From: Gordonia iterans
Lineage (GTDB): Bacteria > Actinomycetota > Actinomycetes > Mycobacteriales > Mycobacteriaceae
Assembly (NCBI RefSeq): GCF_002993285.1
Contig: NZ_CP027433.1
Coordinates: 1,426,001 to 1,490,000, forward strand
Direction of reading: 5' to 3'
DNA length: 64,000 nt
This document shows positions 18,131-23,788 of this stretch, piece after piece. Under the pieces are notes generated by a model. The model made no database searches. It worked only from the letters and a program-made list of their open reading frames with translations, and was not told the origin of the DNA. Positions within the stretch are counted from its first letter, which is position 1, and each line of letters begins with the position of its first letter. Made by a program: the position numbers and the translations under genes.

Positions 18131-18378
18131 GATTCTGGCCCTTTCATTCGCGCCGCTGTCGCGGCATGGATACGACAATCCGCCCGCCGGTGACGGGTGG
18201 ATCGCACTATCTCCATTGCGGACATGTCCTGCCGGAGCCGGTAGTCCCCTCCGCGAATGTGTCAGGTGAGCACTTCACCATCGAGAGCGCGCGAGGCACG
18301 TGACCTCACTCCGTCAGAATAGGGGAACGCGGGCGCCGATCGCCACTGGAGCGGTGGTCTGCGGCCACATGGATGCCA

Positions 18379-18405
18379 TCGAACATACGTTCTATAATGG
18401 TCCGG
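18379..18405 (+). promoter_or_regulatory. LexA box and -10 element of dnaE2
   Basis: TCGAACATACGTTCTA (18379-18394) is a near-perfect LexA operator differing from the imuA' box at one spacer base. A consensus TATAAT (18393-18398) overlaps its right end, and the dnaE2 GTG follows after six bases. LexA bound here would cover the -10 element. The layout predicts a leaderless, SOS-induced transcript. Confidence 0.92.
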
Positions 18406-21400
18406 TGGGATGGAGTAACGGGCCGCCGAGCTGGTCGGAGATGGAGCGAGTGCTCTCCGGCCGGTCGCCTGCCGCGGGTGCCGACGGCGCGCAGCCATAT
18501 GTCCCGGGCGACGGCGGGGACTCCCCGGCTTGGTCGCGCAAGCGTGGCGCGTATCAGCCCGAGGAGGTGCGCTCCGTCGTCTCGGCGGTCCCGTACGCCG
18601 AACTCCACGCGCACAGCTCCTACAGCTTCCTCGACGGCGCCTCGCTGCCCGAAGAGATGGTCACCGAGGCGCAGCGGCTCGATCTGAAAGGTCTCGCGCT
18701 GACCGACCACGACGGCTTCTACGGCGTTGTTCGCTTCGCCGAGGCCGCCCGCGAGTACGGCATGCCGACGGTCTTCGGTGCAGAGCTCTCGCTGCAACGG
18801 GATTCTGCGCGTGCGGGAGCGGTGGATCCGCCAGGTGAGCACCTGCTGGTCCTCGCCCGAGATGCCGAGGGCTATCGGCGGCTGTCCCGGGTGATCGCCG
18901 ACGCGCACATGAGCGGCGACCCTTCGACGGGGCTCAGGGGCCGAAAGGGGCTGCTGAGTTACGACGCGGACCTCCTCACCTCGTCGGCGAGGGGACACTG
19001 GCTGATCTTGACCGGCTGTCGGAAGGGATCGGTGCGCCGGGCGCTGGCTGCCGGCGGTGCGGTGTCGGCACGAAAGACGCTGGGGGAGTTGACTGATCGC
19101 TTCGGTCGGGAGAACGTCGTCGTCGAGCTGACCGCTTCCGGCTGCAGCGACGACGACGAGCGCAACGAAGTGCTGACAGCGTTGGCCGGTGAGGCGCGAC
19201 TGCCGACCGTTGCCACCACGGGCGCGCATTTCTCGGGCCCGCAGCGACGACGGCTCGCCATGGCGGTGGCCGCGGTGCGGGCGCGCACCGACGTCGCCAC
19301 CATCGCCGAATGGCTGCCGGGCATCGGTGGGGCACATCTGCGCAGTGGAGACGAGATGGCCCGGCTGATGCCGGCGCACCGCGAGGCGATCGACAACGCT
19401 GCGGCGCTGGCCGCGGACTGCTCCTTCTCGCTGGGGCTGATCGCGCCGAATCTGCCGCCTTTCGACGTTCCCGAGGGACATACCGAGGCGAGTTGGCTGC
19501 GGGAGCTGACCGAGCGGGGTGCCCGCCGCCGCTACGGCACCCGCGTCGACCGCCCCGATGCCTATCGGCAGATCGATCACGAGCTGGACATCATCGAGAC
19601 GCTGATGTTCCCCGGGTACTTCCTCGTGGTGCACGACATCGTCGATTTCTGCAAACAGCACGACATCCTCTGCCAGGGCCGGGGGAGCGCCGCGAACTCG
19701 GCGGTCTGCTACGCGCTGGGCATCACCAACGTCGACCCGGTGGCGAACAAGCTGTTGTTCGAGCGGTTTCTGGCGCCCGAGCGAGACGGTCCGCCGGACA
19801 TCGACGTCGACATCGAGTCCGACCGCCGCGAAGAGGTGATCCAGTACGTCTACGCTCGTCACGGCCGCGAGTACAGCGCCCAGGTCGCGAACGTGATCAC
19901 CTACCGCGGACGGTCGGCAGTGCGCGACATGGCGCGAGCGCTCGGCTACGCCCCCGGGCAGCAGGATGCGTGGAGCAAGGTGCCCGACTCGGCACCCGAC
20001 GACGTGCGCGCCATGGCCGCGGAGATCGCCTCCATGCCAAGGCATCTCGGGATCCACTCCGGTGGAATGGTGATCTGTGACCGGCCGATCGCCGACGTCT
20101 GCCCCACCGAGTGGGCGCGCATGGAGGGGCGAAGCATCCTGCAGTGGGACAAGGACGACTGCGCCGCCGTCGGCCTGGTGAAGTTCGACCTCCTGGGCCT
20201 GGGGATGCTCTCTGCGCTGCACTATGCGATGGATCTGGTGAAGGCGCACAAGGGAATCGAGGTGAATCTGGCCGCGCTCGACCTCTCTGAGGAGGCCGTC
20301 TACGACATGCTCTGCCGCGCTGACACTGTCGGCGTGTTCCAAGTGGAGTCGCGGGCGCAGATGGCGACGCTGCCCCGACTCAAGCCGCGCAACTTCTACG
20401 ACCTCGTGGTGGAGGTCGCGCTGATCCGGCCCGGCCCCATCCAGGGCGGCTCGGTGCACCCGTACATCCGGCGACGCAACGAGCAGGAGGCGCCCACCGT
20501 CGAACATCCGTCGATGGAGAAGGCTCTCGAGCGGACTCTCGGCATCCCGCTGTTCCAGGAACAGCTGATGCAACTGGCGGTCGACGTCGCCGGGTTCGAT
20601 GCTTCCGAGGCCGATCAGCTCCGGCGGGCGATGGGTTCCAAGCGCTCGCCGGAGAAGATGGAGCGGCTGCGTTCCCGCTTCTATGAGGGGATGGAAAGGG
20701 TCAACGGCATCACCGGCGAGACGGCTGACCGGATCTACGAGAGGATGGCGGCTTTCGCCAATTTCGGCTTCCCGGAGAGTCATTCGCAGAGTTTCGCGTC
20801 GCTGGTCTTCTACTCGGCGTGGTTCAAGCTGCATCATCCGGCGGCGTTCTGTGCCGCACTGCTGCGGGCGCAGCCGATGGGCTTCTACTCGCCGCAATCG
20901 CTGGTTGCCGATGCTCGGAGACACGGCGTCACGGTGCATCGGCCGGACGTGAACGTCTCCGTCGCGCATGCGGAACTGGAGAACCGGGGTCTCGACGTGC
21001 GAATCGGTCTGGGGGCGGTCCGGGGACTGGGTGACGACGCGGCGCAGCGCATCGTCGACGATCGGCTCGCGCAAGGGGAGTACCGGAGCATCGCCGATCT
21101 CTCCCGGCGGACGGAACTGACCGCGGCACAACTGGAATCGCTGGCCACCGCGGGCGCCTTCGAGTCGCTGGGGCTGGATCGACGTGCTGCGCTGTGGGAA
21201 GCCGGGGCGGCAGCCGGGATCCGCGAGGACCAGCTCCCGGTGGTCTCCCCGCGGGAGGCGCCGACGCTGCCGGGGATGTCCGACGTCGAACTGGCGGCGG
21301 TGGATGCGATGTCGACTGGAATCACGCCACACGCCTATCCGACGCAGTACCTGCGCCCGCGGCTGGACGCGATGGGGGTGACGCCGGCCGACCGGCTGCT

Positions 21401-21689
21401 CTCGGTGCCCGACGGTTCGCGTGTGACCGTCGGCGGCGCGGTGACCCACCGTCAGCGCCCGGCGACAGCATCCGGGGTCACTTTCGTGAACCTGGAAGAC
21501 GAGACCGGGATGGTGAACGTGGTCTGCTCGGTCGGGCTGTGGACCCGCTACCGGAAGCTGGCGCAGACCGCGTCGGCACTGCTGATTCGCGGAAAGGTGC
21601 AGAACGCCGAGGGCGCGGTGACCGTCGTCGCCGATCGCATACAGCAGCTGGACCTGCGCGTGGGCACCCGTTCGCGCGACTGGTGCTGA
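18405..21689 (+). CDS. dnaE2: Error-prone DNA polymerase III alpha subunit DnaE2
   Basis: A 1094-residue C-family polymerase, the catalytic member of the ImuA'-ImuB-DnaE2 mutasome. The N-terminal MGWSNGPPSWSEMERVL matches the conserved start of mycobacterial DnaE2. The PHP domain begins at PYAELHAHSSYSFLDGAS. The polymerase core has SAANSAVCYALGIT and the acidic motif PDIDVDIESDRREEVIQYVYARHG, then KRSPEKMERLRSRF and the fingers region. The C-terminal OB-fold is GSRVTVGGAVTHRQRP...VNLEDETGMVNVV. The GTG at 18405 is chosen over an upstream ATG because the promoter -10 lies between them. Confidence 0.97.
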   Translation: MGWSNGPPSWSEMERVLSGRSPAAGADGAQPYVPGDGGDSPAWSRKRGAYQPEEVRSVVSAVPYAELHAHSSYSFLDGASLPEEMVTEAQRLDLKGLALTDHDGFYGVVRFAEAAREYGMPTVFGAELSLQRDSARAGAVDPPGEHLLVLARDAEGYRRLSRVIADAHMSGDPSTGLRGRKGLLSYDADLLTSSARGHWLILTGCRKGSVRRALAAGGAVSARKTLGELTDRFGRENVVVELTASGCSDDDERNEVLTALAGEARLPTVATTGAHFSGPQRRRLAMAVAAVRARTDVATIAEWLPGIGGAHLRSGDEMARLMPAHREAIDNAAALAADCSFSLGLIAPNLPPFDVPEGHTEASWLRELTERGARRRYGTRVDRPDAYRQIDHELDIIETLMFPGYFLVVHDIVDFCKQHDILCQGRGSAANSAVCYALGITNVDPVANKLLFERFLAPERDGPPDIDVDIESDRREEVIQYVYARHGREYSAQVANVITYRGRSAVRDMARALGYAPGQQDAWSKVPDSAPDDVRAMAAEIASMPRHLGIHSGGMVICDRPIADVCPTEWARMEGRSILQWDKDDCAAVGLVKFDLLGLGMLSALHYAMDLVKAHKGIEVNLAALDLSEEAVYDMLCRADTVGVFQVESRAQMATLPRLKPRNFYDLVVEVALIRPGPIQGGSVHPYIRRRNEQEAPTVEHPSMEKALERTLGIPLFQEQLMQLAVDVAGFDASEADQLRRAMGSKRSPEKMERLRSRFYEGMERVNGITGETADRIYERMAAFANFGFPESHSQSFASLVFYSAWFKLHHPAAFCAALLRAQPMGFYSPQSLVADARRHGVTVHRPDVNVSVAHAELENRGLDVRIGLGAVRGLGDDAAQRIVDDRLAQGEYRSIADLSRRTELTAAQLESLATAGAFESLGLDRRAALWEAGAAAGIREDQLPVVSPREAPTLPGMSDVELAAVDAMSTGITPHAYPTQYLRPRLDAMGVTPADRLLSVPDGSRVTVGGAVTHRQRPATASGVTFVNLEDETGMVNVVCSVGLWTRYRKLAQTASALLIRGKVQNAEGAVTVVADRIQQLDLRVGTRSRDWC

Positions 21690-21777
21690 CGGAAATGCGG
21701 CCGTGCGCCGATGCGGTACGACACGCCTTATGTCGCGAGTTGCTCCCGCGCCGCCGCCTGCCCTCCAGAATCGAAGC

Positions 21778-21927
21778 GGATGGACGGTGCGAGCGGGATC
21801 GCTGGATCCGTCTCAGGGGATACCCCTGGGTTCATGAACTGTTCTGCATAACGTCGCGCGCAGCACGGCACACTTCGTGTGCGCTTCTGCGCGCCGAAGA
21901 CGACAAGTCTGGTCGCGCCGTCCATCC
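21778..21927 (+). ncRNA. Candidate retron msr-msd RNA (a1/a2 inverted repeats with hairpins)
   Basis: A 15-nt arm GGATGGACGGTGCGA (21778-21792) is matched by TCGCGCCGTCCATCC (21913-21927); the arms pair over 15 positions with one G-U. Right after the first arm is an AGC (21792-21794), the usual context of the retron branching guanosine (G21793). Two short msr-like hairpins follow, GGATC-GCTG-GATCC (21796-21809) and CAGGGG-ATA-CCCCTG (21814-21828). A longer msd-like hairpin comes next, with GCGCGCAG (21856) pairing CTGCGCGC (21887) and GCACAC/GTGTGC inside. The order a1-msr-msd-a2-RT is that of retrons, and an RT gene begins 22 bp later. No folding program was run. Confidence 0.6.
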
Positions 21928-21948
21928 ATGAACAACGAAGGTGGAGTG

Positions 21949-22836
21949 ATGACGGGATCGGGCCTGCGGAGGTGGAACCGCTTCGACAGCGCGGATGGTC
22001 GCTTCGGTGGAATCGCTGATCAGCTCCGACGGCGACGATCCGGCGCAGGTCTGGACCAGCCGCGAGCTGAACGGCGCACTGATCACCGCCGTCGATCCGG
22101 TGATCGCGGACGACATCACCAGGCTGCTTCTCGACGCGTTCGCGCGACCGCCGGCCGCGCTGCGCGAGGAGCTCTCGGCGCTGCTTTCCGCCGTCCCCGC
22201 CGAGCCTCGTGTCTGGCCCACCGAAACACAGGTCTCGCGGCCGGTGTTCGACGTCCCGCCGCAGTGGCGACCTATCTGACGAGTCTGTGCACGACAGTGC
22301 TGGCCGTCGCCGACCGAGATCAGACCGACTGGTACCACGCTGCGCTGCTGCGCGAACGACACCTGCCGCAGGGTGCGCCGACGTCGCCCGCTCTGCTGAA
22401 CCTGGTGCTCCGTCGGCTCGACATCAGAATCAGCGGCTACGCGGCGAAGCACGGCATCACCTATACACGGTACGCAGACGACCTGGCCTTCTCCGGCGAC
22501 GGGATGGACACCGGACGACTGCACTGGTTCGTCGCCCGGGTCGTCGTCGCCGAAGGGTTCAGGCTGCACCCGGACAAGACCCGGGTGATGGGCGAACATC
22601 AGCGACAGCAACTCGCCGGCCTGGTGGTCAACCGCGGACTGCACGCGCGGCGATCCGAGTACGACGCACTGAAAGCGCTGCTGCACAACGCGGCTCGCGA
22701 GGGCGCAGCGTCTCAGAACCGGGTCGGGCATCAGGACTTCCGCGCTCACGTATACGGGCGGATCGATTGAGTGTCGACCGGATCTCCCCGTCGTCGCGAA
22801 CGCCTGCTGGCGATGGCGGCGCAGGTGGAGTGGTGA
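21949..22836 (+). pseudogene. Retron-type reverse transcriptase, degraded
   Basis: An ATG at 21949 with a good AGGTGGAG ribosome site begins MTGSGLRRWNRFDSADGR. Homology-like sequence then continues in another frame (VESLISSDGDD..., VWTSRELNGALI, DAFARPPAALREELSAL) to about 22260. It then jumps frame to YLTSLCTTVLAV, HLPQGAPTSPALLNLVLRRL, TYTRYADDLAFSGD and RQQLAGLVVN, the later RT motifs with catalytic YADD. About 110-130 residues, containing the earlier palm motifs and the first catalytic Asp, are missing at the junction. The frame then stops at TGA (22768-22770) where Trp would fit, and continues VSTGSPRRRERLLAMAAQVEW to 22836. At least three lesions make it non-functional as read. Confidence 0.75.
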
Positions 22837-23020
22837 GGTCTCGACTCCGCGGCGGTCGGGAGCTGCGTCCTGAATCGGCGGGAGACGCATCGGCGTCGTC
22901 GCGGGACACACTCGCGGTGGTGATGGGACGCGCTCGCGCGATCGGAGCACAGCCGTGCCGCGTGCGAGTTAGTGTCAGGCGAAACCGTCCACCGAACGAA
23001 GGAACCGGGAAGGGGCAGGC

Positions 23021-23788
23021 ATGGAGGTCGTGATCACCGACCACCCCGAGCAGGTGATGGCCGACATCATCGCCGGTGCTGTGACCGACGGTGCGACGAC
23101 GCTCGGTCTGGCTACCGGATCGTCGCCGCTGCCGACGTATCGAGAACTGATTCGGCGACACCGAGAAGACGGGCTATCCTTCGCCGGGGTGAAGGCGGTC
23201 CTGCTCGACGAGTACGTGGGCCTGCCGCCGACGCACCCGGAATCGTATGCGCGCTTCATCCGCGAGAACTTCACCGACCACGTCGACATCGGCGACGTGT
23301 ACTCGCCAGACGGCATGGACCCGGACTACCGCGCGGCCGCACTGAACTACGACGCGCTGATCAAGGAGGTCGGGCCGGTCGACGTGCAGATCCTCGGGAT
23401 CGGCAGCAACGGTCACATCGGGTTCAACGAGCCGTCGTCGGCACTCACCTCGCGGACCCGGATCAAGACCCTGACGGAGAAGACCCGGCAAGACAACGCG
23501 CGATTCTTCGACGACGACCTCGACCAGGTGCCCATGCACGTGATCACTCAGGGCCTGGGGACCATCTGCGAGGCGCGTCATCTGGCGCTCGTGGCCACTG
23601 GTGAGGGCAAAGCCGACGCGATCGCCGTGGCCGTCGAAGGACCGTTGTCCGCCGCATGCCCGGCGTCGATCCTGCAATGGCCCCCGCATGCCACCGTCGT
23701 GGTGGATCCGGCGGCGGCCTCCAAACTCCGCGACTACGACTACTACCGCTATGTGTATGAGAACAAGCCGGAGAACCAGCGGTCGTAG
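23021..23788 (+). CDS. nagB: Glucosamine-6-phosphate deaminase
   Basis: Converts glucosamine-6-phosphate to fructose-6-phosphate and ammonia in amino-sugar catabolism. The 255-residue protein has LGLATGSSPLPTYRELI for phosphate binding, LDEYVGLPPTHPESYARF with the catalytic acid region, and GIGSNGHIGFNEP followed by SRTRIKTLT. Asn replaces the Asp of enteric NagB in GxxDGHI, as in several Gram-positive enzymes. The AAGGGGCAGGC before the ATG is the ribosome site. No nagA or PTS gene is adjacent. Confidence 0.95.
   Translation: MEVVITDHPEQVMADIIAGAVTDGATTLGLATGSSPLPTYRELIRRHREDGLSFAGVKAVLLDEYVGLPPTHPESYARFIRENFTDHVDIGDVYSPDGMDPDYRAAALNYDALIKEVGPVDVQILGIGSNGHIGFNEPSSALTSRTRIKTLTEKTRQDNARFFDDDLDQVPMHVITQGLGTICEARHLALVATGEGKADAIAVAVEGPLSAACPASILQWPPHATVVVDPAAASKLRDYDYYRYVYENKPENQRS

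Follow-up and report, generated by a model that had tools for sequence, protein, structure and literature searches.

A broken retron of an untyped class beside dnaE2 in Gordonia iterans and the RNA family to which it belongs

The locus and the state of its parts

The analysed stretch of DNA (i.e. the window) comprises 64,000 nucleotides from Gordonia iterans, whose genome is a single contig of 4.0 Mb. Gene order in the window is dnaE2, retron, nagB, ABC transporter, trmL and folD. A preliminary description had proposed a decayed retron beside the gene for an SOS polymerase; both a retron-type RNA and a broken reverse transcriptase (RT) gene were found, with dnaE2 upstream (Table 1). The 15-nt inverted repeat bounding the RNA is present and pairs at every position (14 Watson-Crick pairs, i.e. 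93%, and a final G-U pair), the AGC at the end of its first arm was verified in the letters, and two short hairpins follow. The longer two-tier hairpin was also recovered, in a narrower extent than the 21853-21902 first given. The proposed end point of the unit is the last base of the old RT stop codon.

Table 1. Positions of the retron parts and neighbouring genes in the window
Feature	Position	Strand	Evidence
dnaE2, error-prone DNA polymerase (neighbour)	18300..21689	+	NCBIfam NF004225, 1520 bits
Retron-type RNA (msr-msd)	21771..21931	+	model R1, end-to-end match, 95.7 bits, E 9.6e-17
Retron-type RNA, R2 extent	21776-21929	+	model R2, 73.6 bits, E 7e-12
a1 arm	21778..21792	+	pairs with a2; changes on both sides as compared to relatives
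Presumed branch (priming) G	21793	+	inside AGC 21792-21794; priming presumed by analogy with known retrons (PMC6868368, in part)
msr hairpin 1	21796..21809	+	fold; helix 3 of the 54-row alignment, 98.8% of cells paired
msr hairpin 2	21812..21830	+	helix 4 of the 54-row alignment, 100% of cells paired; GGGG-loop-CCCC core
msd two-tier hairpin	21856..21894	+	fold; helices 5 and 6, 96.7% and 98.9% of cells paired
a2 arm	21913..21927	+	fold, inverted-repeat search, pairing with a1
Broken RT gene, ATG and first codons	21949..21990	+	letters checked; similar to starts of intact relatives
RT N-terminal piece, other frame	21995..22276	+	PADLOC RT_other 2.9e-4, RT_outgroup 9.5e-4; tblastn against intact relatives
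RT C-terminal piece (PQGAPTSP, YADD)	22252..22836	+	nonsense codon 22768-22770; old stop 22834-22836
nagB, glucosamine-6-phosphate deaminase (neighbour)	23021..23788	+	NCBIfam TIGR00502, above cut-off

Folding of positions 21770-21935 gave -84.8 kcal/mol as compared to -61.05 +/- 3.98 kcal/mol for 200 shuffled sequences (z = -5.97), none of which was as low. The same layout was observed upstream of intact homologous RT genes, where the arm sequences differ. An alignment of 44 such RNAs with the window left out (A1) has a consensus of 26 pairs, 15 of which show changes on both sides. The covariance model built from A1 (R1) matched the window RNA, with the runner-up within the 64 kb at 15 bits (E = 0.19), and produced a single match across the whole host genome.

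As compared to intact relatives, the RT gene of the window begins with the ATG at 21949, shifts frame near 21990, continues in the next frame as far as about 22276 and then lacks about 130 codons. After this gap the first frame resumes and is interrupted by a nonsense codon before the old stop codon. The remnant keeps the PQGAPTSP and YADD motifs and is devoid of the earlier finger and palm motifs. The two kept motifs and the loss of palm motifs had been described; the frameshift, the N-terminal piece in another frame and the nonsense codon are additions to that description. By our reading, 14 of the 46 columns that do not vary among 49 intact RTs fall in the missing part, as does the motif A aspartate. 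No complete RT gene is present at the window locus and, judged from the frameshift, the missing codons and the nonsense codon, the RT gene is a pseudogene. Only one RVT_1 match was obtained in the host genome.

The RNA retains 46 of 50 conserved columns (46-48 in five intact relatives) and 24 of 25 invariant columns. Its earlier designation as a fossil is therefore too strong: the RT has decayed, and the RNA exhibits no visible decay. Pairwise dN/dS for the C-terminal part of the RT was 0.21-0.24 in comparisons that include the window and 0.08-0.27 between members of a set of six intact copies, with dS near saturation. Together, the conserved RNA columns and the dN/dS values like those of intact copies speak for a recent inactivation of the RT. 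In the RT tree, the window has a branch of 0.31, longer than the 0.08 and 0.18 of its sisters, which fits some time under relaxed constraint. An RNA that serves some function in this strain independently of the RT, and is kept by selection, would likewise be expected to retain its conserved columns and its 15 paired a1/a2 positions, but recent RT loss accounts for these observations too, constraint is still apparent in the RT piece and the window RNA has the lowest R1 score of 54 (95.7 bits versus 96.7 and 101.9 bits for the intact loci L005 and L003, and 100.2 bits for L095). We consider such an independent use improbable and prefer recent loss of the RT.

Class of the reverse transcriptase

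A phylogenetic position outside the retrons had been named as an outcome that would contradict the retron proposal; profile, sequence and fold rankings all put retrons first. Comparison to PADLOC models gave RT_other (1.2e-80), RT_outgroup (4.3e-76) and type XIII (2e-49) for the C-terminal piece of the window, and 545 bits (3.6e-164), 512 bits and 313 bits, respectively, for an intact relative. Intact relatives match RT_other (PDLC02949) and RT_outgroup (PDLC03740) over nearly their full length and the window pieces match as well, the window copy differing from these classes, when compared by RT profile, in being broken. Amongst NCBIfam models, retron models scored 132-159 bits (best 158.9 bits) as compared to 45.2 bits for the group II model TIGR04416 and 30 bits for Drt2. 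A search of the PDB with a family profile placed retron Ec86 first (5.2e-54) and other retrons next, with group II enzymes (from about 5e-13) and Drt2 (6.8e-9) far below. All of the 18 best fold matches to an AlphaFold model of an intact relative (mean pLDDT 90.2, pTM 0.71) were retron RTs, with modest TM-scores of 0.42-0.50 by query length. Retron Ec86 (Eco1) is both the nearest solved relative and the best fold match. The order a1-msr-msd-a2-RT of Ec86 is the same as observed here.

Intact RTs are 385-479 aa in length by our start rule and have an N-terminal helical region. In 49 rows, region X reads H-x-A-A-[HR]-G-F without NAxxH; this region is deleted in the window. For region Y, L-[AT]-G predominates over an exact VTG (of the 49 rows, 44 have L, 30 A, 17 T and 48 G at the respective positions). 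These departures from the exact retron signatures in both regions count against the retron reading. Retron-like RTs carry NAXXH in 59% and VTG in 47% of cases, according to extracts of PMC4244168. The missing NAxxH, together with a best PADLOC class that has no type number, could point to an origin from a group II intron or a different defence RT (DRT, Abi), but the NCBIfam scores, the ranking of retrons first in both PDB profile and fold matches and the a1/a2 RNA upstream make this very improbable. The RT is, on these sequence and fold comparisons, a member of the untyped PADLOC retron class RT_other/RT_outgroup.

Matches to the RT were obtained in 12 phage records, none covering 80%, and in 11 plasmid records, one covering 80%; the plasmid relatives imply that the RT class is not only chromosomal. 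Identities of 49.4% and 47.8% were found for the plasmid sequences NZ_LR134447.1 (Tsukamurella) and NZ_CP046569.1 (Dietzia), respectively.

The RNA family and its linkage to the reverse transcriptase

Absence of conserved a1/a2 pairing or hairpins upstream of intact homologous RT genes had likewise been set against the proposal. These genes carry the same a1/a2-bounded hairpin RNA directly upstream, with covariation. In 54 aligned R1 matches including the window (alignment A5, which is fitted to the R1 structure), 97.2% of cells were paired as compared to 86.7% after shuffling and 135 cells changed on both sides as compared to 27.8, with none of 500 shuffles reaching either value. Sliding the partners by 1-3 columns reduced pairing to 33-52%. 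For the a1/a2 pairing test, the arms that paired best were chosen from a few anchor pairs, a choice biased towards pairing, and a small number of rows are clearly mis-anchored. When R1 was applied to 58 loci, 20 matched at E 1e-16 or better; eight of these are second copies of training sequences and two come from genomes that repeat each other, so that 10 distinct loci were new.

RNAs outside Mycobacteriales are matched weakly by R1, which counts against the retron reading. A second model (R2) was built from an alignment of 25 RNAs (A3), all from outside Mycobacteriales, i.e. Burkholderia and Paraburkholderia (10), Micromonosporaceae (7), Hyphomicrobium (2) and one each from an alphaproteobacterium, a gammaproteobacterium, an acidobacterium, a planctomycete, a myxobacterium and Curtobacterium. 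Up to E 10, R2 matched the 64-kb window once, at the retron RNA (Table 1). Of the 44 Mycobacteriales loci, it recovered 43 where the RNA was expected (E <= 0.0028), missing L065. Since a model built outside Mycobacteriales finds these RNAs, we read the RNAs upstream of the RTs as one family across phyla. Searches of Rfam 15 gave no match to window positions 21000-23500 up to E 5, nor to nine intact loci up to E 0.1.

The GGGG-loop-CCCC core of msr hairpin 2 consists of invariant columns and is conserved across phyla in A3. The context of the presumed priming G is AGC in the window and in 21 of the 25 RNAs from elsewhere, and AGA in 40 of 54 Mycobacteriales rows; CAGA, CAGC and GAGC are amongst the contexts described for known retrons in parts of PMC6868368. 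Many relatives have a motif like TGGCANNNT directly upstream of a1, and the window equivalent at about 21764-21772 looks altered. A pattern chosen after inspection, [CT]ANNNT, occurs upstream of a1 in 44/44 A1 loci as compared to 17.7 by shuffling, and a motif of this type may be a promoter element. A TANNNT box at this place was unsupported (11/44 versus 8.2 by shuffling).

Linkage of RNA and RT was examined in two sets of genomes, using stricter filters for the R1 scan of 59 Gordonia genomes and for the R1 and R2 scans of 298 Mycobacteriales genomes. R1 matched 22 Gordonia genomes, identical to the 22 with a strong match to the window RT; 18 of these RNAs were training sequences, and those of G000, G021, G023 and G047 were new to the model. 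Open RT frames of 435-552 aa were found in 21 of the 22 carriers, the window being the exception. In two further Gordonia genomes the RT matches were weak (E = 1.7e-5 and 1.6e-4) and the RNA was absent. Their RTs (L024, i.e. G024, and L025, i.e. G032) are of another kind, with 35-39% identity over about 80 residues.

Amongst the 298 Mycobacteriales genomes, 67 matched PADLOC RT_other with an E-value of 1e-60 or lower. Split or short RT_other matches were obtained in G199, G335, G346, G312, G284 and G140. R1 matched 24 genomes, all of them RT carriers, and R2 matched 50, of which 49 were RT carriers; the remaining match, in G112, lies at a contig end. By our distance rule, the RNA is directly upstream on the same strand in 54 of the 67 carriers. 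The other 13 count against the retron reading: the RNA lies just beyond the rule in G133 and G199, a partial match is 3.9 kb away in G178 and 10 have none. Broken copies of the retron RT seem to be carried by other Mycobacteriales genomes also. Chance GC-rich hairpins, or a dnaE2 terminator or attenuator, beside an unrelated RT fragment might be suspected in a GC-rich region that follows the dnaE2 stop and has frequent 10-18 nt inverted repeats (21 pairs in 1601 bases), but an RNA that is found by two models built without the window, goes with the RT, covaries and in many relatives has other genes upstream (most loci have no dnaE2 match) leaves this explanation with next to no credit.

History, effector and mode of action

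The RT tree groups the window with six Gordonia copies (G029, G042, G016, G023, G044 and G007; support 100/99). At all six sister loci trmL follows the RT and at five dnaE2 lies upstream within the fetched stretch, the contig of G042 ending there. Seven Williamsia-type loci have the order dnaE2, retron, trmL. This order, common to the Gordonia sisters and the Williamsia-type loci, speaks for descent of the retron at one place in Gordonia and Williamsia. In the RT tree, the Williamsia copies and the window clade do not form an exclusive pair of sisters. Other loci among the best 80 of 528 RT matches have neither dnaE2 nor trmL within 4 kb, except for L026, which is the G023 copy already counted. 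Two observations count against the retron reading: the window retron lies between dnaE2 and nagB and does not adjoin trmL as in its sisters, and G048, the nearest relative by dnaE2 (91%), has no retron in the approximately 360 bp between dnaE2 and nagB. A residual retron in G048 was rejected, as good alignment is confined to the dnaE2 end and the nagB side. One locus (L033), on a contig titled Kitasatospora arboriphila, has an RT that groups with Williamsia muralis and Williamsia-like neighbours, and the record is, for these reasons, probably mislabelled or contaminated.

Clustering of ORFs of at least 90 aa within at most 4 kb on each side did not detect a partner recurring across genera. Shared neighbours were rejected as effectors, the 14 largest clusters being confined to Burkholderia or to Williamsia and near kin, or comprising eight mixed loci with no position in common. 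In Williamsia herbipolensis (L046), 17 nt separate the end of dnaE2 from the RNA, and the end of trmL lies 131 nt beyond the RT; the corresponding gaps in G007 are about 334 nt and about 30 nt. Neither of these two closed loci leaves space for a separate effector gene. At the remaining six loci of Williamsia type the gaps are 80-597 nt upstream and 490-526 nt downstream, and a small or upstream partner is possible there and in other Gordonia, which have room upstream. With no effector linked in the two closed loci, we infer that either the N-terminal region of the RT would itself be the effector, or the partner would be unlinked or missing.

We consider it highly likely that the window carries a chromosomal retron of the untyped RT_other/RT_outgroup class which recently lost its function through lesions in its RT gene. 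In intact relatives the unit consists of one RNA (a1, G, two msr hairpins, msd with a two-tier hairpin, and a2) followed by the RT. Parts of PMC6868368 outline how known retrons work: 2'-5' priming starts from a G that the a1/a2 stem exposes, and the msd serves as template for the RT. The anatomy observed here agrees with this scheme. By this established biochemistry, the a1/a2 stem would present G 21793 as a 2'-OH primer, and the RT would copy the msd from next to a2, producing a branched RNA-DNA molecule (msDNA). No msDNA would be expected in the window strain unless an RT acted in trans and, since the host genome has no second RVT_1 match, the RNA would be an orphan template. For intact copies the most likely use would be phage defence, as in other retrons.

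Several known systems resemble this unit in part. Extracts of PMC6868368 describe the myxobacterial retrons Mxa1 (Mx162), Mxa2 (Mx65), Sau1 (Sa163) and Nex2 as vertically inherited, with an extended RT N-terminus and a priming G in CAGC or GAGC. By comparison with this description, all three traits are present here in some form; the msDNAs of these retrons are proven, whereas the present class is known from sequence alone. The same source reports for Retron-Nex1 (Ne160) of Nannocystis msr-msd copies without a working RT close by, as in the window, but these are repeated copies away from an RT whereas the window has a single copy adjoining its broken RT. A linked effector accompanies Ec86 (the title of 7v9x includes 'in complex with its effector'), in contrast to the present class, which has none in the two closed loci. 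Literature searches that included PMC6868368, PMC4244168, PMC9252829, PMC8934634, PMC8989520, PMC12262390, PMC6498646, PMC7276702 and PMC12548924, partly as excerpts, and whose scope excluded the main retron surveys, found no report of the present RNA among the matches listed, which does not prove it unpublished. Surveys list retrons in Actinobacteria and, in the excerpts available, name their RTs and not their RNAs.

The locus is, as far as sequence comparison goes, a retron of an untyped class that was broken recently, and its RNA belongs to a family without an Rfam 15 match in the loci searched. A tentative, rather doubtful extension is that such units are widespread solo retrons (one RNA and one RT with an N-terminal helical region, without an effector gene), retained through vertical inheritance beside dnaE2-trmL in both Gordonia and Williamsia, with one deeply conserved RNA that also occurs in Pseudomonadota, Acidobacteriota, Planctomycetota and Myxococcota; the RT N-terminal region would then be a sensor or effector, and the window would represent the unit just after RT loss with its template RNA whole. 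The two models tie the RNA to the RT in an untyped retron class across several phyla and can be used to annotate copies, predict msDNA and recognise broken copies, whilst a layout without a linked effector would make the mode of action directly testable.
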